This document shows, one piece after another, positions 19,662-29,442 of a stretch of 37,013 nucleotides of DNA. Both the position numbers and the translations under genes were made by a program. The stretch's first letter is position 1. Every line of letters starts with the position of its first letter. Source of the DNA: Pseudomonadota bacterium (GTDB taxonomy: Bacteria > Campylobacterota > Campylobacteria > Campylobacterales > Sulfurospirillaceae); assembly GCA_017860615.1 (NCBI GenBank), contig JAGDMU010000018.1:1-37013 (forward strand), written 5' to 3'. The notes below the pieces were generated by a model. It was not told the origin of the DNA. It made no database searches and was given only the letters and a program-made list of their open reading frames with translations.

Positions 19662-21614
19662 ATGAACAACTGGTCAATTTCACAGAAAATTTACATTCCT
19701 CTTTTTGGAGGAATTATTATAGGATTTATTCTCATTCTTTTCTCCTCCTTTTTAAGCATTAAAGGGATTGAAAAAGATGTTTATGAAAACGAACAAGAGG
19801 CATTAAAGATTTATGTCAAAAATCAACTCGAAGCACAATACGATGTCGCACTCACCAATGCCATTACCATTGCAGGTAACTATTACGTCATTGAAGCACT
19901 TTTAAACAATGATCGTTCCATCGCAATCAAAGGGCTTAAAGAACTCACAAAGCTCTACAAAGAGAAGACCGATTTTAAAGAGGCTCAAATTCATATCCAC
20001 ACGAAAGATATTAAAAGTTTTGTGAGAGAGTGGATGCCGAACAAATTTGGCGATGATCTCTCCAGCTTTCGTCAAACGATTAAAAGTGTCAAAGAGACAA
20101 AACAGCCTCTTACAGCCATCGAAATGGGCGTTGCAGGTATGTCACTTCGAGGTGTCGCTCCCATCCTCAAAGAGGGAGAATATTTAGGTTCTGTTGAATT
20201 TATCGACTCTTTTGATGCCGTTGCAATCAACGCGCAAAAAGATTTAGGCGCAAGCGTTATCTTCTTAACCGACAAAAAACTTCTCAACCTCAGTGCTGGA
20301 GCGAAAGATGCTCTTTTGGCTAAAGATACCGCTCTTTCCCAAAAGAAAGAGATCACCAATATGAAACTGTTTGAAGAGATCAAGGACATTGATCTGACAA
20401 CAAAAGGTGGCAGTTTCTCGACACCAACCTATTTTGTTGTCAGAGATGAGCTTAAGTCGTTTGATGGCACGCGTGCAGGTGAGGTCTTAATTGCCAAAGA
20501 GATTAAAGCTGTTAAAGCCGTTGTTCACGAAGCACAATACGTTCTTGTAAAACAGCTTATCATCATGTGTATCATCACAACAATTATTATGGCGATGCTG
20601 GTTATTACGCTTAAAAAATCGGTTATTGATCCTGTAAAAGAGCTTAAGGTTCGTGCAGAAAACCTCTCCAGTGGCGATGGTGACCTCACGAAAAAGATGG
20701 AGATCAAAAGTGGCGATGAGATAGGACTTGCGTCTCTTGCATTCAACCTCTTCATCGATAAAGTGCGTACCACCGTCAGCATGGCAAAATCGTCCAGCAG
20801 TGAAAATGCTTCTGTTGCCAATGAGCTAAGTTCTACCGCTCTTGAAGTAGGCAAACGTGCAGAAGAGACCTCTTCTATCGTTAATGAAACCAATCAAATG
20901 TCACGCAACATTAAAGATGAACTCTCTCTTTCATTGCAAAAAGCAAAACAATCCGAAGTTGAGATTTCCGAGGCTCATGCAAAGCTGACCAATGCAAAAA
21001 ATCAAATTATTAAAATGGCAGATCAAGTCCAATCCAGTGCGCATACCGAAGTGGAACTTGCCCGTCAAATTTCACAACTCAGTACTGACGCAGACCAAGT
21101 CAAAGGCGTTCTAACGGTTATCTCCGACATTGCCGATCAGACCAATCTGCTCGCACTCAACGCTGCGATTGAAGCAGCACGTGCAGGAGAGCATGGACGT
21201 GGGTTTGCGGTTGTTGCCGATGAAGTACGCAACTTAGCTGAACGTACCCAAAAAAGCCTGACCGAAATTAATGCAACCATCAACGTGATTGTCCAAGCGA
21301 TTAACGATGCGAGCGATCATATGAACAGCAACTCACAAAGTATGGAAAACCTTACCAAGATTGCTTCTGAGGTGGAAAAAAATATCAACGAGACAGCCGT
21401 TATTATGGATAATGCAACGATTTCAAGTGAAAATACGGTGAAAGATTATATTGAGACAGGCAAAAAAGTAGATGCTATTGTCACCAAAATTGAAGAGATC
21501 AACACCATTACGATTAGCAATACTCGCAGTATGGAAGAAGTGAGCGGTGCAACAGAACATCTCAGTGATCTCACCGAGAAGCTTAACAACGTTTTAGGCA
21601 ATTTTAGAACGTAA
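19662..21614 (+). CDS. Methyl-accepting chemotaxis protein with periplasmic double-Cache-like sensor
   Basis: A 650-residue transmembrane chemoreceptor. TM1 lies at about 13-33 and TM2 at about 296-317, enclosing a periplasmic region of about 260 residues. Its [16 protein letters not shown] and [20 protein letters not shown] stretches resemble dCache_3-type domains. A HAMP domain (about 317-370) and a long cytoplasmic coiled coil follow, with the conserved signalling tip (487-532, containing [20 protein letters not shown] and [12 protein letters not shown]). It ends GNFRT without a C-terminal CheR-binding pentapeptide. It signals through CheA/CheW; the ligand is unknown. It stands alone with its own promoter and is convergent with pxpC. 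Confidence 0.93.
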
Positions 21615-21616
21615 TG

Positions 21617-21639
21617 GCAAGAAGCTTTAGGCTTCTTGC
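21617..21639 (+). terminator. Hairpin between the convergent chemoreceptor and pxpC genes
   Basis: GCAAGAAGC, loop TTTAG, GCTTCTTGC: a perfect 9-bp stem starting 2 bases after the chemoreceptor stop and overlapping the last codons of pxpC. On the plus strand it is followed by TCTTT, a short weak T-run, so a terminator for the chemoreceptor gene is plausible. On the minus strand no T-run follows. Confidence 0.45.
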
Positions 21640-22556
21640 TCTTTGAAAAAGGTGTAAAAGGCCTTGGTTGCCCTTTGCGCCTCGCTCAAACTGACCTCTT
21701 TAAATTTCACCTTTCCACCTGCTTTGAGTTGTGCTAGTTTAAAACAATCTACAGCGATCACAGAACCAATTTTAGGATACCCACCAATGGTTTGTCGCTC
21801 TTTTAAAAGCACGATGGGCTCACCATGGCTAGGCACTTGAATCGCCCCATAGCAAATAGGCTCAGAGAGAATCCCTGTAGCGCTTGGCACTACTTTTTCA
21901 CCGCTTAAGCGATACCCCATGCGATCACCCTCGCCTTTGAAGGTATACGCACTGTTAAAAAATGTCTCGTGCGATTTTTCATCAAACATCGCCTCTTGGT
22001 AGCCTTTGACAACGCGTAACGTAATGGTTTCAGGGTATTTTGGGATGAATTTTCGCTCCAACTTACGCCTATCCACAGGACATCTTGCACCTAACGTAGA
22101 CAATAGATCACCAGATTTCAGTTTGCGCCCTTCAAGCCCACCCAAACCTTCTTTGAGGCTGGTGGAATAACTGCCATACACATAAGGTGTTAGGAATCCC
22201 CCCGCAACAGCGATGTAAGCAAATTGTCCTTCATTCGCAAAACCAAAAGCAATCACATCCCCGCGTCTGAGTTGATACGTCTGCCATAAAGCAATGCTGT
22301 GACCATTACACGTCGGTTGCATATTCGCCCCACAAATCGCAATGCACATCTCACTTTTAGCTCTAAAAGAAGCCCCACCCAGCGCTATTTCAATGGTAGC
22401 TGTGTTAAACGCATTCCCTACTAAGAAATTCGCATAGCCAAAGGCTAACTCATCCATCGCACCGCTTTGGGTCAAACCAATATCGCTAAATCCTCTACGT
22501 CCTGCATCTTGAATAGAGCTTTGAACACCGCCATTTTCGACAATAAAGCCATTCAT
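21627..22556 (-). CDS. pxpC: 5-oxoprolinase subunit PxpC (KipA-like)
   Basis: A 309-residue biotin-dependent-carboxyltransferase-like (KipA) subunit of the ATP-dependent 5-oxoprolinase PxpABC, which converts 5-oxoproline (pyroglutamate) to glutamate. Family motifs are SIQDAGRRGFSDIGLTQSGA near residues 14-33, then CGANM, the AYIAVAGGF segment, and ILSEPICYGAIQVPSHGEPI near 231-250. The start overlaps the end of pxpB by 4 bases. It is the last gene of the dctPQM-pxpABC chain and ends in a hairpin shared with the convergent chemoreceptor gene. Confidence 0.92.
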   Translation of the reverse strand: MNGFIVENGGVQSSIQDAGRRGFSDIGLTQSGAMDELAFGYANFLVGNAFNTATIEIALGGASFRAKSEMCIAICGANMQPTCNGHSIALWQTYQLRRGDVIAFGFANEGQFAYIAVAGGFLTPYVYGSYSTSLKEGLGGLEGRKLKSGDLLSTLGARCPVDRRKLERKFIPKYPETITLRVVKGYQEAMFDEKSHETFFNSAYTFKGEGDRMGYRLSGEKVVPSATGILSEPICYGAIQVPSHGEPIVLLKERQTIGGYPKIGSVIAVDCFKLAQLKAGGKVKFKEVSLSEAQRATKAFYTFFKEQEA

Positions 22557-23236
22557 AGCGCACCTCCAAGTCTTAGAAATTCTTCTTTGGAGATAGCTTC
22601 ATACCTCACATGATCGCCCACGTGTAATAAGGAGAGCCCATCATAAGAGGCGTCAAACATCGCTATGGGCGTTCGTCCCAACACTTTCCAGCCACCAGGA
22701 CTTTGTGTCGGATAAACAGCACTCTGACGATCAGCAATCGCCACACTGCCCTTAGGAACGGCTTTGCGGGGACTTGCCAACCTTGATGTCGCCAAACGCT
22801 CATCTATTTCTCCCAAATAAGCAAACCCAGGGGCAAACCCGATCGCATAAACACTGTAAAGCTCTTTCGTATGCAAAGCAATAATTTCTTCAACACTGAG
22901 GTTTTTTTCCTCACTGAGAAGTTCCAAATCAAGCCCTACTTCAAGCCCATAATAAACAGGTATGGTGACAATTTTTGGCTCATCCATCGTAATCGCTTCG
23001 GCATGATGAATGCACGTTTCGATGATCTCACAGACCGCATCAAAATCAAAACGCATGACATCATAACTGACCATCAAAGAGGCATACGAAGGGATAATCT
23101 CATAAAACCCTTCATAGGCTTCTGATTTAAGGGCTTGGTAGGCTTTTTGCACCTCTTGAGAGATCAAAGGATCAATGGTGCTTCCAAAATAGACGATAAC
23201 AGACGACTCTGAGGCAATGGTGTAGCTTCTACTCAC
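22553..23236 (-). CDS. pxpB: 5-oxoprolinase subunit PxpB (KipI-like)
   Basis: A 227-residue KipI-like protein, partner of PxpC in the 5-oxoprolinase complex. Motifs include the YAIGFAPGFAYLGEIDERL segment near residues 130-148, ASPRKAVPKGSVAIADRQ near 153-170 and YPTQSPGGWKVLGRTP near 173-188, all typical of the allophanate-hydrolase subunit 1/KipI fold. It overlaps pxpA and pxpC by 4 bases on each side. The older name kipI (Bacillus sporulation kinase inhibitor) would mislead here: the three-gene set with pxpA indicates the metabolic role. Confidence 0.92.
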   Translation of the reverse strand: MSRSYTIASESSVIVYFGSTIDPLISQEVQKAYQALKSEAYEGFYEIIPSYASLMVSYDVMRFDFDAVCEIIETCIHHAEAITMDEPKIVTIPVYYGLEVGLDLELLSEEKNLSVEEIIALHTKELYSVYAIGFAPGFAYLGEIDERLATSRLASPRKAVPKGSVAIADRQSAVYPTQSPGGWKVLGRTPIAMFDASYDGLSLLHVGDHVRYEAISKEEFLRLGGAL

Positions 23237-23964
23237 ATGCTTTTCCTAAGGGTTTCTACCATAGTAACCGCCTCTTCATTATCGCCATGCACACACAACG
23301 TATCGGCTCGCAGAGCGATTCTTTTGCCTGAAATAGTCTCTAAAACGCCCTCTTTTTGAAGCAGTTTTAAGCGCTCAATGACGGCATTCACATCATGAAG
23401 TACTGCCCCTTTTTGCGTGCGAGGGACTAAAAGACCACTGTCATCATAGGCGCGATCGGCAAACACTTCGTAAATAAGCTCTAAGCCAAGCTCTTTAGCA
23501 ATCATTTCTTGCTTTGACGTATCAACCATGGAGAGAACCATCAATTGAAGCTTTGGATTTACGCGTGCAACGGCTGTTGCTACCGCTTTGAAAATGCGTT
23601 CATCTTTCATCATATCGTTATAGAGTCCACCATGCGGTTTGACATACGAAAGTGTCGCACCATTGGCGGTTACGAAGCCTTGCAATGCTCCAATTTGGTA
23701 GATGACCATGGACTCAACCTCTTCAAGAGAACAGACCATACTTCGTCTACCAAAGCCCACCAAATCAGGGTAGGCAGGATGCGCACCAATGGTAACGCCG
23801 TGTTTTAGGGCTAATTTAATGGAGCGATCCATTATCACAGGATCACCCGCATGAAAGCCGCAGGCAAAATTTGCCATATCGACATAAGGCATAATGGACT
23901 CATCAAGCCCCATCTTCCAAGAACCAAAACTCTCGCCTGCATCACAATTTAATTTTATACTCAT
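23233..23964 (-). CDS. pxpA: 5-oxoprolinase subunit PxpA (LamB/YcsF family)
   Basis: A 243-residue LamB/YcsF family protein and third subunit of the PxpABC 5-oxoprolinase. Conserved signatures occur in family order: LNCDAGESFG near the N-terminus, FACGFHAGDP, GAHPAYPDLVGFGRR, YVKPHGGLYN, EVFADRAY and LCVHGDN near the C-terminus. The length is normal. It overlaps dctM by 4 bases upstream and pxpB by 4 bases downstream, so transporter and enzyme are translationally linked. Confidence 0.94.
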   Translation of the reverse strand: MSIKLNCDAGESFGSWKMGLDESIMPYVDMANFACGFHAGDPVIMDRSIKLALKHGVTIGAHPAYPDLVGFGRRSMVCSLEEVESMVIYQIGALQGFVTANGATLSYVKPHGGLYNDMMKDERIFKAVATAVARVNPKLQLMVLSMVDTSKQEMIAKELGLELIYEVFADRAYDDSGLLVPRTQKGAVLHDVNAVIERLKLLQKEGVLETISGKRIALRADTLCVHGDNEEAVTMVETLRKSM

Positions 23965-25295
23965 CCTATCATCCTATTGGGTAAATAAAAGACTATTTCT
24001 GGGAGCAATGTTACCATAGCCGTAATTAAAACCATTATAAGGAAAAAGGGAATTGTTGCTCGAATAATAAAGCCTATTTTTTCACCAGAGATGCTCTGAA
24101 TAACAAAAAGTGAAAAGCCAACAGGCGGCGTGATCTGTGCCATTTCCACCATAAAAACTAAAAAGATACCAAACCAAAGGGCATCAAACCCTGCTAACGT
24201 GACAATAGGAAGGACAATAGGCAGTGTCATAACCACCATGGAGATGCCATCTAACATCATCCCAAGAATGATATACATGATCGCTATAACCACAATAAGC
24301 ATCAAAGGCGTTAATCCCATAGAAGCGATAAATTCACTGATAGCACGCGCAATGCCTAAAAAACCGACGACTTGCGATAAAAAGCCTGCCCCTGCGATGA
24401 TGAAGCTGATCATTACCGTGGTTTTAATGGTATTGGCAAGCGCTATTTTGAAAATGGCAAAACTAAAGCTTTTAAAATAGAGCGCAAGTATCATTGAAAA
24501 GAAAACGCCAAGTGCCGCTGCTTCCGTCGGTGTCGCAATACCAGCATAGATACTTCCAATCACCACGGTAATGAGGAGTAATACGGGAAAAAGCTCTTGA
24601 AGAGATGCCACTCTTTGCGCCCATGTAAAGTGCTCTTTGCTGGCAGGAACAACGCGTTTATCCAAAAATGCCACCAACATAATATACAAAGAATAAGACG
24701 TTGCCAGTAAAAGACCAGGAATAATGCCTGAGATAAACAGTCGACCAATAGAGACATCCGCTAAAACGCCGTAAATAATCATAATGATACTAGGAGGAAT
24801 TAAAAAACCTAGCGTTCCACTGCCAGCCAGTGAGCCAAGGGCAAGAGATTTGCTATAGCCTCTTTTATGCAATTCATCCAATGTAATCTTTCCAACCGTT
24901 GCTGTGGTCGCCGCCGATGAGCCTGAGACAGCCGCAAAGAGGGAACATGCCGCCACATTGATGTGCAATAATCGCCCAGGAACATTGCTAAGCCAAGGGA
25001 CCAAACCGTTAAAAAGTTTGTTCGAGATAGAAGAGTAGTGCAAAATCTCACCCATTAAAATAAACATCGGCAAGGATGCAAGCGACCATGAATTCATGGA
25101 ATCATAAATAGAACCCGCAAGTAAATTGCCTATCTTGTTGATAATGCTAATGGCAGGAGGAAGGTGATGGTCATAAATGAGCATTCCAAAAATACCTGTG
25201 AGAAAAAGTGATGCCCCAATCCAAATAGACGAGAGTAAAAAGAGAAACATAACACCAATCAGCACAGCGGATAATAATAGTGGATCAGCAATCAT
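23961..25295 (-). CDS. dctM: TRAP transporter large permease subunit (DctM)
   Basis: A 444-residue membrane protein with about 12 hydrophobic helices. DctM features include SSAATTATVGKITLDELHKR near 125-144, the LAGSGTLGFLIPPSI loop and, near the C-terminus, the TPPVGFSLFVIQSIS segment. It is the sodium-driven permease that takes substrate from the DctP receptor across the inner membrane. I set the start at ATG 25295, with AAGGA about ten bases upstream; the longer frame starting inside dctQ adds ten non-family residues. It overlaps dctQ by 11 bases and pxpA by 4. Confidence 0.92.
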   Translation of the reverse strand: MIADPLLLSAVLIGVMFLFLLSSIWIGASLFLTGIFGMLIYDHHLPPAISIINKIGNLLAGSIYDSMNSWSLASLPMFILMGEILHYSSISNKLFNGLVPWLSNVPGRLLHINVAACSLFAAVSGSSAATTATVGKITLDELHKRGYSKSLALGSLAGSGTLGFLIPPSIIMIIYGVLADVSIGRLFISGIIPGLLLATSYSLYIMLVAFLDKRVVPASKEHFTWAQRVASLQELFPVLLLITVVIGSIYAGIATPTEAAALGVFFSMILALYFKSFSFAIFKIALANTIKTTVMISFIIAGAGFLSQVVGFLGIARAISEFIASMGLTPLMLIVVIAIMYIILGMMLDGISMVVMTLPIVLPIVTLAGFDALWFGIFLVFMVEMAQITPPVGFSLFVIQSISGEKIGFIIRATIPFFLIMVLITAMVTLLPEIVFYLPNRMIG

Positions 25296-25776
25296 GATGT
25301 CCCATCCTTTGGAGTATAAATGCAATCACAGCAATACTAAACAGTGCAAAACCTAGAGGCAGTGCCAATTGGGGTATAAAAAGTGGGGTAGCCGATACAC
25401 CCTCAGAAACAACGCCTGTTTGGTATGAATCCCATGTCAGCAACGCTGTACGATAAAAAATAAACAAAAGTAACCCAACGGTGCTCAGACCAGCAAAGAT
25501 ATCAACCCAAGAAGAGGCTTTGGTCGATAACTTAGCCGTTAGAAAAGTAATACGAATATGCCCATCTCGTAAAAACGTATGCCCAAAACCAAAACAGACA
25601 AGGGCTAAATAGAGATACCCACTGTACTCATCCGCACGCATGGTCGAGGTGTTAAAAAAATAACGCAAGGTTATCTCGACCAAGATCAAAGCCACAAGCA
25701 TGATCAATAATGTTGAAGCGATAAAAACTCCCCCAAGGGAGAGTTTTCGCGCAGTCTCAATGAAAAAATGTCTCAT
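25285..25776 (-). CDS. dctQ: TRAP transporter small permease subunit (DctQ)
   Basis: A 163-residue protein with four predicted transmembrane helices. It has the DctQ-type segment RYFFNTSTMRADEYSGYLYLALVCFGFG near residues 40-67, followed by LRDGHIRITFL. It forms the membrane complex with DctM. The start overlaps dctP by 4 bases. It is co-directional with the 5-oxoprolinase genes. Confidence 0.9.
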   Translation of the reverse strand: MRHFFIETARKLSLGGVFIASTLLIMLVALILVEITLRYFFNTSTMRADEYSGYLYLALVCFGFGHTFLRDGHIRITFLTAKLSTKASSWVDIFAGLSTVGLLLFIFYRTALLTWDSYQTGVVSEGVSATPLFIPQLALPLGFALFSIAVIAFILQRMGHHDC

Positions 25777-26732
25777 TGCTTTTTATATTCCGTAAAGATT
25801 TTTTTAATCATTGGATCAGCATCCATCAGATACGCATCCAGCATTTTTTGAGCAACCGCATCCAACTCTTTTTTAAGCTCAGGGCTTGCCTCTGTGATCC
25901 TAACGCCATTATCGGAGATCAATTTTAACGCTACTGCATCTTCTGTTTTACTGGCTTCCCACTGCGCTTTTTCAATTGTCTCAGCCGCTTTAAGAAGTGC
26001 TTCTTGTTGTGCTTTATCTAAGCTTTTCCAGTAGTCGAGGTTAATCGTCACGGCTTGCAATGGATAGGCATAGTTAATTTTTGTAAAATCACTTAAAACT
26101 TCCCAAAATTTTCCATCTTTTCCAGAAGCTGAAGAGGTGACCACTGAATTTACCATACCCGTACTAAGCGCTGAATAAACTTCACCCCAGGGCAATGCCA
26201 CAGAACTTCCACCCACCATGGTGATAAAATCAGCTGAGTTTTTATCGTAAGTTCTGGTTTTAAGATCACTAAAATCCGCTTTAGTATTCATCGGTTTTTT
26301 GGTGTAAAGTCCGCTCGGCGGCCAAGAGACAGTGTAGAGCATTTTTTGATTCCATGTGGCGGCGGCTTTTTCATACGCAGGCTTTGAGATTTGATAAAGT
26401 TTATATGCGTCATCATACGAATTTGCTACAAACGGTAACGCAGAAACACCAAATACCTTACCTCCACCTGCTGTGAAAGGGATGAACATATCGGTCATGG
26501 CAACCGTGCCATCTTTCACCGCTTGAAGCGGACTACCTTTCACCAGAGAGCCTCCCGCATGAACCGTGATTTTCACACTGCCTTTGGTGTACTCATCCAC
26601 CAACGCTGCAAACTGTTCAGCACCTTTTGTATGGACGTTATTTGCCCCATAAATGGCGTTAAGATCCATTTTAATCGTGGCCGCCATCAAGGCGCCAACC
26701 GTACATGAAAGAAGAACTAATTTTCGTAACAT
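25773..26732 (-). CDS. dctP: TRAP transporter periplasmic substrate-binding protein (DctP)
   Basis: A 319-residue solute receptor with a signal peptide (MLRKLVLLSCTVGALMAA) and the DctP fold. The SDLKTRTYDKNSADF segment contains the arginine that usually pairs with the substrate carboxylate, followed by VALPWGEVYSALSTGMVNS, the helix typical of DctP. Family knowledge: some DctP proteins (Bordetella DctP6/DctP7) bind pyroglutamate. The downstream pxpABC makes pyroglutamate the leading substrate here, by context only. AAGGAG lies upstream of the ATG, and a likely regulated promoter lies in the 80-base gap to the regulator gene. Confidence 0.9.
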   Translation of the reverse strand: MLRKLVLLSCTVGALMAATIKMDLNAIYGANNVHTKGAEQFAALVDEYTKGSVKITVHAGGSLVKGSPLQAVKDGTVAMTDMFIPFTAGGGKVFGVSALPFVANSYDDAYKLYQISKPAYEKAAATWNQKMLYTVSWPPSGLYTKKPMNTKADFSDLKTRTYDKNSADFITMVGGSSVALPWGEVYSALSTGMVNSVVTSSASGKDGKFWEVLSDFTKINYAYPLQAVTINLDYWKSLDKAQQEALLKAAETIEKAQWEASKTEDAVALKLISDNGVRITEASPELKKELDAVAQKMLDAYLMDADPMIKKIFTEYKKQ

Positions 26733-26761
26733 ACTGCACTCCTTAAAAAAGTTTTGAACAC

Positions 26762-26799
26762 ATCTTAACAGAGTGCGGTGGGGAAAAAGTGGGGAAAAA
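26762..26799 (-). promoter_or_regulatory. Candidate PhoB-type operator and promoter of dctPQM-pxpABC
   Basis: Two exact head-to-tail copies of an 11-bp unit, GTGGGGAAAAA on the plus strand, at 26778-26788 and 26789-26799. On the minus strand, ten bases separate the repeats from a -10-like TAAGAT (26762-26767), which lies about 30 bases before the dctP ATG. OmpR/PhoB-family regulators commonly bind tandem direct repeats with an 11-bp period placed about ten bases upstream of the -10. A regulator of exactly this family is the adjacent upstream gene. Confidence 0.5.
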
Positions 26800-26812
26800 A
26801 GAGCTATATTGC

Positions 26813-27490
26813 TTAAAAAATAAGCCGATACCCTTCTTGCGGGAGATTCTCTAAAAACTCTATTGTTACCTTTTTACGCAACTCTTTAATAAACGTTTTA
26901 AGGGCTTCGCTGCTCATGACTTTTCCCTCCCAAAGGGTATCTTCGATCTGCGCATACGTTGTAATTTTTTTCTGATTGTGTAGCAGTAAAAGTAAAAAAT
27001 CTTTTTCTCGTTTGTTGAGGCTAATTTCAGACTCTTTAAAAAACAGTTTTCGCTCTAGTGGAGAGAACAAAAGATCACGGCCTAGTTTGATACGCCCAAG
27101 TAATTTACCATCCAGTGCACGTTTAATCCCTTCTAAAAGGCGCTCAGCATTGGCAGGTTTGAGAATGAAATGATCAATCTTAAGATTAATCAGCTCCATC
27201 AAATACTCCTCTTTACTGTACGCGGTCAGCATAATAATGGGGGTTTGTTTATCGTTTTGACGAATGGTTGCAACCAACTCCACGCCGCTCATGCCATTCA
27301 TCCCAATATCGCTAATAATCAGATCGGGGTGGTGCGCCTCATAAAGCGCTAATCCTTCAAATCCATGACGTGCTTCATAGACGGTCCCAAAATAGTAGGA
27401 GAGTGTTTTTGCCAATCGTGCACGAATGCCCTCCTCATCTTCAACACATAAAACGCTCATAGACTTTAATGCTTCTAAGGATGCTTCCAT
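26813..27490 (-). CDS. OmpR/PhoB-family response regulator
   Basis: A 225-residue two-domain regulator. The receiver domain (about 11-125) has the acidic pair in CVEDEEG (Glu17-Asp18), the phosphoacceptor Asp61 in LIISDIG, Thr89 in MLTAYS and Lys111 in FILKP. A C-terminal winged-helix DNA-binding domain (about 140-225) has ISLNKREKDFLLLLL and ends QEGYRLIF, typical of Trans_reg_C. I chose ATG 27490, which forms TGATG with the kinase stop, rather than the GTG one codon earlier; GAGG lies about seven bases upstream. It is coupled to the kinase and directly precedes dctP, so it probably controls the TRAP/pxp operon. Confidence 0.92.
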   Translation of the reverse strand: MEASLEALKSMSVLCVEDEEGIRARLAKTLSYYFGTVYEARHGFEGLALYEAHHPDLIISDIGMNGMSGVELVATIRQNDKQTPIIMLTAYSKEEYLMELINLKIDHFILKPANAERLLEGIKRALDGKLLGRIKLGRDLLFSPLERKLFFKESEISLNKREKDFLLLLLHNQKKITTYAQIEDTLWEGKVMSSEALKTFIKELRKKVTIEFLENLPQEGYRLIF

Positions 27491-29364
27491 CACGACACCT
27501 CTACCCTAAATTTTGCCCCAAAAGCGTCATTTTCCACTTCGATCTTTCCACCCATATTTTGCTCAATAATCATCTTTGCCATGTAAAGCCCCAGCCCACT
27601 ACCTTTCGAAGCTTTTTTAGTCGAAAAGTAGGGTTCAAAAACCATTTTGAGATTGCTCTCCTTAATGCCTCCACCATTGTCCATCACGCAGACTAAAGCG
27701 TTGCCCTCTGGTGTGCGGCCTATCTCCACCCAAATTTGCGGTTCTGGTACTTTACGCTCTATTAAAATATCTTTCGCATTGAGGATCAAATTGAGAATAA
27801 CTTGGGCGTATTCATTGGGGTATCCTTCAATTTTAGGCGAATCAAAAATCTTTACATGTAAAGCGATATGGGAGTTTTTCAAAACCGCTTGCGCTAAGCT
27901 AAATGCCTCTTCACACGCCTTTTGAATCCAAAAACTCTCTTTTTCTTTGGAAGGTTTGAAAAAATGTCTAAAATCATCAATTGTCCGAGACATATAACTT
28001 AAGAGTTTATCCGCTTCCTTGGCACTTTCTTGTATCAGTTGCGTATCTGCTTTTCCAAATTTTGAAGCGGTTTCTAGCTCCATAAAAATACCTGAAACTT
28101 CACTCAAAGGCTGCCTCCATTGGTGCGCGATGATACTGAGCATCTCACCCATCTGCGCTAACCTCGACTGCTGAAGCAATGCCATATCTTTTTGCTTTGA
28201 CTCTTCGAGAGCCTTGTTGATCTTAAAGCGTAGTGTGGCATTAAACTCTTTGAGTGCTTCGGTTTTATGACGCACCCGTTCACGATAACTCTCAAGGGCG
28301 CGATTAATCTGCTTCGTCACCAAGTACGAGATAAACCCCACGCACAGCATAGAGACAAGTGCTATCACAATCACACCAAAGATATAACGATCCATCTTCG
28401 CTTTCATCTCCTCTTTTTTCAAAGCAATCTCTTTTTGAACATCATCCCCATACACACCCGTCCCAACCACCCAATGCCATGGTTTAAACTGTGCCACATA
28501 CGAGATTTTTTTAGAAGGTGTCTCCGCATAAGGTTTACGCCAAAAATACTCTACAAAAGCACCTTGATCCTCTTTTTCCAAAGCTTTTTTGACAAACGTT
28601 TGGATGATCGCCTTTCCAGCTTGATCTTTGAGCAGTGTGTCATCTTTTCCAATGCTCTCTTCTCTAAAAGGGTGCGCTAAAAGTGTATGTGTTGTATTGT
28701 GTATCCACATGTAACCACCCTCACCATACCGCAAAGACTCGCTCCAAGAGATCATCTCATCTTTTAGCCTTGAAGTAGCAATATCCAGATACTCCGCCGC
28801 TCCAATACTCCATCCATAAGGCGCTAATGATTTGACATACACGCGCCTTGGTCGCCCTACTTCGCTGGTAGCATACCCTTCATGTTTTAAAGCCTCATGT
28901 ACCGCACTTTGAAGCCCAATGCGATCACCTAACTCTTCTAAGGGATAGAGTATATCTCCTTTGGCATCCAGTATAAAATAGTAACCTCGATGACCACTGA
29001 CATGCAAAGAAGAAAGTGTCAAAAGTAGCTCTTGGCGTAAGACCTGCAAAGATTTACCTTCCCCTTTTGCAAAAAGATTGATGCCCATCATATGGACATC
29101 ATCTACCCTATCTTTGAGCTCCAAATCAATGGTACGATGCATCATGGCTAAGTGGTACTCAAAGTAGTTAAAAATCTTTTGGATCTCATTGACCAATGTC
29201 GCTTTTTGCTGTTGCAAAAGCTTTTGCTCTAAGGCTTGACTCTCAACATTAAAATTCGCACGCTCAATCGAGATAAAAAAAGAGAGTGTAAAAAGTGTCA
29301 ATAAGCCAATAGTGACAATCGGTGTTAAAAAAATAAGTTTAGCCAAATGCTTCTCTTTGAACAT
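27490..29364 (-). CDS. Membrane sensor histidine kinase with double Cache domain
   Basis: A 624-residue kinase. TM1 at about 10-32 and TM2 at about 327-349 enclose a periplasmic region of about 290 residues with two Cache_2-like modules (GYYFILDAKGDILYP near 127-141 and GGYMWIHNTTHTLLAHP near 216-232, ending WHWVVGTGVYGDD). A coiled-coil linker follows, then a dimerisation domain with IIAHQWRQPL (His414) and an ATPase domain with the N-box NLILNAKD, DNGGGI (562-567) and GSGLGLYMAK. Cache domains usually sense small extracellular carboxylates or amino acids, which fits the transporter operon. It overlaps the regulator gene by one base. A weak -10 (TACAAT) lies about 27 bases upstream. Confidence 0.92.
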   Translation of the reverse strand: MFKEKHLAKLIFLTPIVTIGLLTLFTLSFFISIERANFNVESQALEQKLLQQQKATLVNEIQKIFNYFEYHLAMMHRTIDLELKDRVDDVHMMGINLFAKGEGKSLQVLRQELLLTLSSLHVSGHRGYYFILDAKGDILYPLEELGDRIGLQSAVHEALKHEGYATSEVGRPRRVYVKSLAPYGWSIGAAEYLDIATSRLKDEMISWSESLRYGEGGYMWIHNTTHTLLAHPFREESIGKDDTLLKDQAGKAIIQTFVKKALEKEDQGAFVEYFWRKPYAETPSKKISYVAQFKPWHWVVGTGVYGDDVQKEIALKKEEMKAKMDRYIFGVIVIALVSMLCVGFISYLVTKQINRALESYRERVRHKTEALKEFNATLRFKINKALEESKQKDMALLQQSRLAQMGEMLSIIAHQWRQPLSEVSGIFMELETASKFGKADTQLIQESAKEADKLLSYMSRTIDDFRHFFKPSKEKESFWIQKACEEAFSLAQAVLKNSHIALHVKIFDSPKIEGYPNEYAQVILNLILNAKDILIERKVPEPQIWVEIGRTPEGNALVCVMDNGGGIKESNLKMVFEPYFSTKKASKGSGLGLYMAKMIIEQNMGGKIEVENDAFGAKFRVEVS

Positions 29365-29396: not shown

Positions 29397-29442
29397 GCAA
29401 TTTTAAAGTGAGCTTTACGCCTAATATACAGACAATTCATAG

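Follow-up and report, generated by a model that had tools for sequence, protein, structure and literature searches.

A conserved tandem repeat as the predicted operator of an OmpR/PhoB-type regulator at the dctPQM-pxpABC operon of Campylobacterota

The tandem 11-bp direct repeat located in front of dctP in the 37,013-nucleotide stretch of DNA analysed here (hereafter, the window) is in all likelihood the operator through which an OmpR/PhoB-type response regulator would activate the dctPQM-pxpABC operon for 5-oxoproline use, by PhoB-like class II activation. The initial annotation had recognized in the repeat the geometry of OmpR/PhoB-type activators at a TRAP/pxp operon and had read it as an operator, a reading that is supported by a conserved, fixed spacing that tracks the linked regulator. 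A guess based on a single repeat has become a precise operator consensus that goes with a single clade of regulators across many Campylobacterota, and the regulator-operator-operon triple is ready for direct testing.

The repeat and its genetic context in the window

The plus-strand unit GTGGGGAAAAA occurs twice without a gap at positions 26778-26799, confirming the period of 11 annotated from the letters. On the minus strand, which encodes the operon, the repeat reads TTTTTCCCCACTTTTTCCCCAC, that is, two copies of TTTTTCCCCAC, followed by the 10-nt spacer CGCACTCTGT (26768..26777), the predicted -10 box TAAGAT (26762..26767, consensus TANNAT), 29 nt and the dctP ATG; the annotated distance of 10 bases between the edge of the repeat and the minus-strand TAAGAT (26767-26762) was exact. 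The core half-sites of the predicted operator (26778..26799, minus strand), both CCCAC, lie at 26789-26793 (distal) and 26778-26782 (promoter-proximal), and the dctP ribosome-binding site, AAGGAG, was read directly from the sequence at 26739..26744 on the same strand.

The repeat was the sole place in the 37-kb window with at least 11 consecutive lag-11 matches. A lag-11 run of that length appeared in none of 100 first-order Markov simulations, and five of the 100 had such a run when all lags of 9-12 were admitted, indicating that a perfect tandem 11-mer is by itself unusual, not overwhelming, and suggestive, no more. The observation that the intergenic regions held no further copy was extended to the whole 2.79-Mb genome, where none was found with up to three mismatches; the relaxed core CYCAC-N6-CYCAC-N10-TANNNT likewise gave a single occurrence in a pattern scan of this genome.

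The end of the regulator gene (26813..27490, minus strand) lies roughly 13 nt before the repeat, with a gap of 80 nt between its stop codon and dctP. Its product, the presumed binder, is an OmpR/PhoB family member, as had been annotated, with Response_reg (PF00072, 93.3 bits) and Trans_reg_C (PF00486, 36.3 bits) domains, both above the gathering cut-offs. The start of this gene is overlapped by the gene for a sensor histidine kinase with a periplasmic dCache domain (27490..29364, minus strand). Downstream of the repeat, also on the minus strand, are the genes for the TRAP solute-binding protein (dctP, 25773..26732), the small permease (dctQ, 25285..25776) and the large permease (dctM, 23961..25325), followed by those for the 5-oxoprolinase subunits A (pxpA, 23233..23964), B (pxpB, 22553..23236) and C family (pxpC, 21627..22556). 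These six genes very probably form a single transcription unit, because they overlap one another from dctP to pxpC. The three pxp genes were found together: PxpA exceeded its subfamily cut-off and PxpB the NCBIfam equivalog cut-off, whereas PxpC passed the domain-family cut-off and scored 230.7 against an equivalog cut-off of 500.

The solved structures closest to the window DctP were 2PFZ (4e-53) and 2PFY (4e-40), which we take to be the Bordetella receptors DctP7 and DctP6, respectively. Crystal structures of DctP6 and DctP7 with 5-oxoproline have been reported (PMC13274462). The cargo of the operon is probably 5-oxoproline, given the PxpABC genes and the proximity of DctP to Bordetella 2PFZ. 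The end of pxpC faces a convergent gene (19662-21614) resembling that of a methyl-accepting chemotaxis protein, whose product might recognize this substrate too.

A scan of positions 26500-27100 for sigma70 promoters and terminators found neither, and no -35 hexamer was present 16-18 nt from TAAGAT, so that the lack of a promoter match was expected. As the gap between the regulator gene and dctP contains no terminator in the window, some read-through is likely. The location of the repeat within the 80 nt that follow the regulator stop codon would also suit an RNA-level element or a terminator of the regulator gene; we give this very little credence, since neither a terminator-like structure nor an Rfam match was found, and the repeat lies upstream of a conserved -10 box and hence outside a dctP transcript starting there.

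Conservation of the site across dctP loci

DctP orthologues from named genomes provided 52 loci, whose neighbourhoods were mapped and whose 130 nt before dctP were scanned; the repeat was scored as present when a period-11 CYCAC pair matched at least 8 of the 10 core positions. A kinase and a regulator upstream, together with dctQM-pxpABC downstream, all on the same strand, were found in 29 of the 52 loci. Loci were classed as regulator-linked when a regulator gene with more than 40% identity lay upstream of dctP on the same strand (n = 37, window included), and as regulator-free when 6.5 kb or more upstream was visible and held no regulator (n = 6). CYCAC-N6-CYCAC was present in 36 of the 37 regulator-linked loci, 34 of them matching 9 or 10 core positions, versus one of the six regulator-free loci (Fisher p = 3.7e-5, to be read as descriptive, because CYCAC was defined on the counted sequences and the loci share ancestry). 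The regulator-free locus with the repeat, L062, had a 9/10 site and no regulator within 6.6 kb. Nine loci with shorter upstream sequence were left unclassed, with the site in three and none in six. The regulator-linked exception, L038, has a degenerate repeat, CTTTCCCCCT twice at period 10 (L038:6090-6130), near a TAGTAT box, possibly a drifting site.

The repeat-bearing loci span Sulfurospirillaceae, Arcobacteraceae, Sulfurimonadaceae and Sulfurovaceae. A -10-like box was located exactly 10 nt past the second half-site in all 40 motif loci (TANNNT in 38, CATAAT in two), while each of the other offsets from 4 to 17 nt accounted for at most 4/40. The 10-nt spacer was constant in length in the 40 loci and had 38 distinct sequences, so recent shared ancestry does not account for the fixed spacing. 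The direct repeat expected in orthologous promoters was thus recovered, with the same period and the same 10-nt distance, in 40 of them. A functionless product of chance tandem duplication or slippage in A/T-rich intergenic DNA, for which the perfect runs in five of the 100 simulated windows might speak, is refuted by this conservation, with period, core and distance alike in 40 loci of four families and spacers that differ; we regard it as extremely improbable.

Information content was 0-0.2 bits in the upstream flanks, about 1-2.5 bits in the core half-site columns and 0.8-1.5 bits at the TA..AT positions of the -10 box, giving the consensus CYCACY-N5-CYCACY-N9-TANNAT. Of the annotated unit, the tandem period-11 arrangement was the part that held across loci; GTGGGGAAAAA itself was not conserved, the conserved core being CYCAC(Y). 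Judged by the sequences compared, the A-tract is incidental, as is the exact match between the two 11-bp copies, and both are peculiar to the window and a few sister loci; in the sister loci L003 and L004 the second copy is instead TTTTTTCTCAC. The distance from the -10 box to the start codon was 22-36 nt in 38 of the 40 loci, leaving space for a short leader with a ribosome-binding site.

Palindromes around TTTACATGTAAA or TACATGTA were observed upstream of the operator in eight loci (L007, L038, L039, L040, L061, L064, L076 and L077). They are terminator-like, in some loci with a T-run, and lie between the regulator stop codon and the operator where the regulator adjoins; they are missing in the window.

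Predicted mode of activation and known systems

The period of 11, the 10 nt to a TANNNT or CATAAT box in 40/40 loci and the missing -35 are the features of a class II operator. In the motif loci the -35 position (16-18 nt) scored 1.6/6, lower than the 2.6 obtained by random placement, as it lies partly between the half-sites and partly on them, and from this low score the half-site pair is predicted to stand in for the -35. Sigma70 promoters of Campylobacterota commonly lack a -35, and its absence alone is no proof of activation. In the proposed mechanism, the dCache kinase would phosphorylate the regulator, and two monomers would dock head to tail on the CYCAC half-sites, one helical turn apart, with both facing the same side of the helix. 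The pair would take the place of the missing -35 and recruit sigma70 RNA polymerase to the TANNAT box, setting the predicted transcription start, and the single dctPQM-pxpABC operon would be switched on, with import of 5-oxoproline (pyroglutamate) and its hydrolysis to glutamate.

The same regulator could instead repress, its unphosphorylated or phosphorylated form blocking RNA polymerase at the dctP promoter, and the site does cover the -35 region, where repressors bind too. We consider this improbable: the promoter lacks a -35 that could be blocked, the site of a repressor could slide or be inverted without loss, and the distance of 10 nt and the orientation, fixed in 40 loci, suit a contact with sigma region 4, in agreement with the PhoB precedent of head-to-tail binding on 11-nt direct repeats and contact with the polymerase sigma factor (PMC4415409). 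Activation is favoured because orientation, helical phase and distance to the -10 box are all fixed, as class II activation predicts.

The Pho box stands at a fixed short distance from the -10 box. The predicted operator resembles the PhoB/Pho box system of Escherichia coli in its OmpR/PhoB-type regulator and in the 11-nt direct repeats that replace the -35, and PhoB binds two such repeats head to tail (PMC4415409, PMC3978041). It differs from the Pho box in its half-site (CYCAC(Y) versus CTGTCAT), in serving a single operon where PhoB governs a phosphate regulon, and in the dCache sensor. The regulator was rejected as a PhoB orthologue (84.6 bits with TIGR02154, whose cut-off is 296.2). The likeness to a PhoB box that had been annotated is accordingly one of geometry; by sequence the site is not a Pho box, nor is the regulator a PhoB orthologue.

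A DccR box of Campylobacter jejuni, WTTCAC-N6-TTCACW over the -35, was reportedly described by Wosten in 2010. Its period would equal that of the window operator and its core would be almost identical, with different targets, and we take the likeness to the CYCAC pair as a lead. DccRS is an OmpR-type system of C. jejuni that activates a small set of genes whose products are periplasmic or membrane proteins (PMC9449129). In Sulfurospirillum, RR2, the OmpR family regulator of the tetrachloroethene regulon, was shown by gel shift to bind CTATW-N17-CTATW, which for the most part overlaps the -35 (PMC7755780). Both this site and the window operator are direct repeats, presumably from the same genus, as the closest named relative of the window is Sulfurospirillum sp. 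SCADC (L032), although sequence, spacing, signal and genes differ; an OmpR-type direct-repeat operator is therefore not new in the genus.

The control of bacterial 5-oxoproline metabolism was stated in 2026 to have been unstudied before PxpR, a dedicated regulator of an operon for 5-oxoproline uptake and PxpABC in Corynebacterium glutamicum (PMC13274462). PxpR is a cytoplasmic GntR-type repressor that acts with an APC-type transporter, whereas the window encodes a predicted two-component activator and a TRAP transporter. To our knowledge, no such operator has been described at the Bordetella DctP6/DctP7 loci. A eukaryotic-type 5-oxoprolinase gene is found in the vicinity of DctP6/DctP7 in Bordetella pertussis (PMC13274462). 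Within the literature collection searched, nothing turned up on TRAP transport, two-component systems and pyroglutamate in Arcobacter, and, ordinary as the operator type is, this regulator-operator-operon switch seems to be undescribed.

We hold it an even question whether, in much of the Campylobacterota, the periplasmic dCache sensor responds to 5-oxoproline outside the cell and activates the TRAP transporter and PxpABC through one CYCAC-N6-CYCAC operator. If so, this would be a second, different solution to 5-oxoproline control, via an outside sensor, and the first known case of a two-component system governing the use of 5-oxoproline. A dedicated activator with a single site and a very regular promoter would also be useful for studying how related response regulators separate their DNA targets, since the genus has dozens of response-regulator paralogues.

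Link to the regulator and extent of the regulon

The regulators of the motif-bearing loci formed one clade (support 99/98). The site at dctP was retained in five loci with a more distant regulator gene, at 0.9-5.3 kb (L042, L044, L054, L064 and L077), and was missing in L037, L063, L065 and L069, where 8 kb of upstream sequence held no regulator. In the presumed recognition-helix segment, most members of the clade have ALK[ST]F[IV][KR], versus mostly ALR[ST]LV in paralogues, a difference that is suggestive only as a tie between site and regulator. The unlinked regulators L013 and L016, without an adjacent dctP, also fell inside the clade; their loci, both short, yielded no CYCAC pair. L013 has a TRAP large-permease-like gene on the opposite strand, and, given this neighbour, further TRAP systems may be under the control of the clade.

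The composite of half-site pair, 10 nt and TANNNT also preceded the kinase-regulator genes in 11 loci (10 of the 52-locus set plus L139), and in L047 it also precedes pxpA. This suggests autoregulation of the kinase-regulator genes in the lineages with the second composite, which are Arcobacteraceae-type, where the second copy would add a feedback to the switch. At the kinase promoter of the window a single CTCAC (about 29408-29412) and no pair was found, and this CTCAC was not conserved in the sister locus L032; the kinase promoter thus does not point to autoregulation in Sulfurospirillum.

The CYCAC pair had 45 matches in the 689-kb locus set, versus three for the reversed pattern. In 60 genomes of relatives the composite had 22 matches, 11 of them before dctP, against 15 for the reversed control, and the excess is therefore confined to the dctP operon; the 11 remaining matches, about the background rate, were none of them beside dctP, kinase or pxp homologues. 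A wider regulon in the window's own genome found no support, as the relaxed pattern with up to two mismatches had fewer matches (74) than the reversed control (173). With the composite occurring once in this genome, the system appears to be a dedicated switch of one operon with no visible regulon.

Another DNA-binding protein, either a paralogous response regulator or a global regulator, might occupy the repeat, as at least 49 matches to the regulator were found in the window's genome and L136 has a similar site before a different response regulator. This we judge quite unlikely, since the site co-occurs with a specific regulator clade and its copies precede the same kinase-regulator genes, and the single composite site in the genome argues against a global regulator. 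The linked regulator remains our preferred binder.

Similar sites, AACTCAC-N5-ACTCAC-N10-TANNNT, were observed before other genes at L136:1503-1534, where the different response regulator follows, and at L142:1501-1532, where a coiled-coil membrane protein follows; they may serve paralogous regulators or have arisen by chance.
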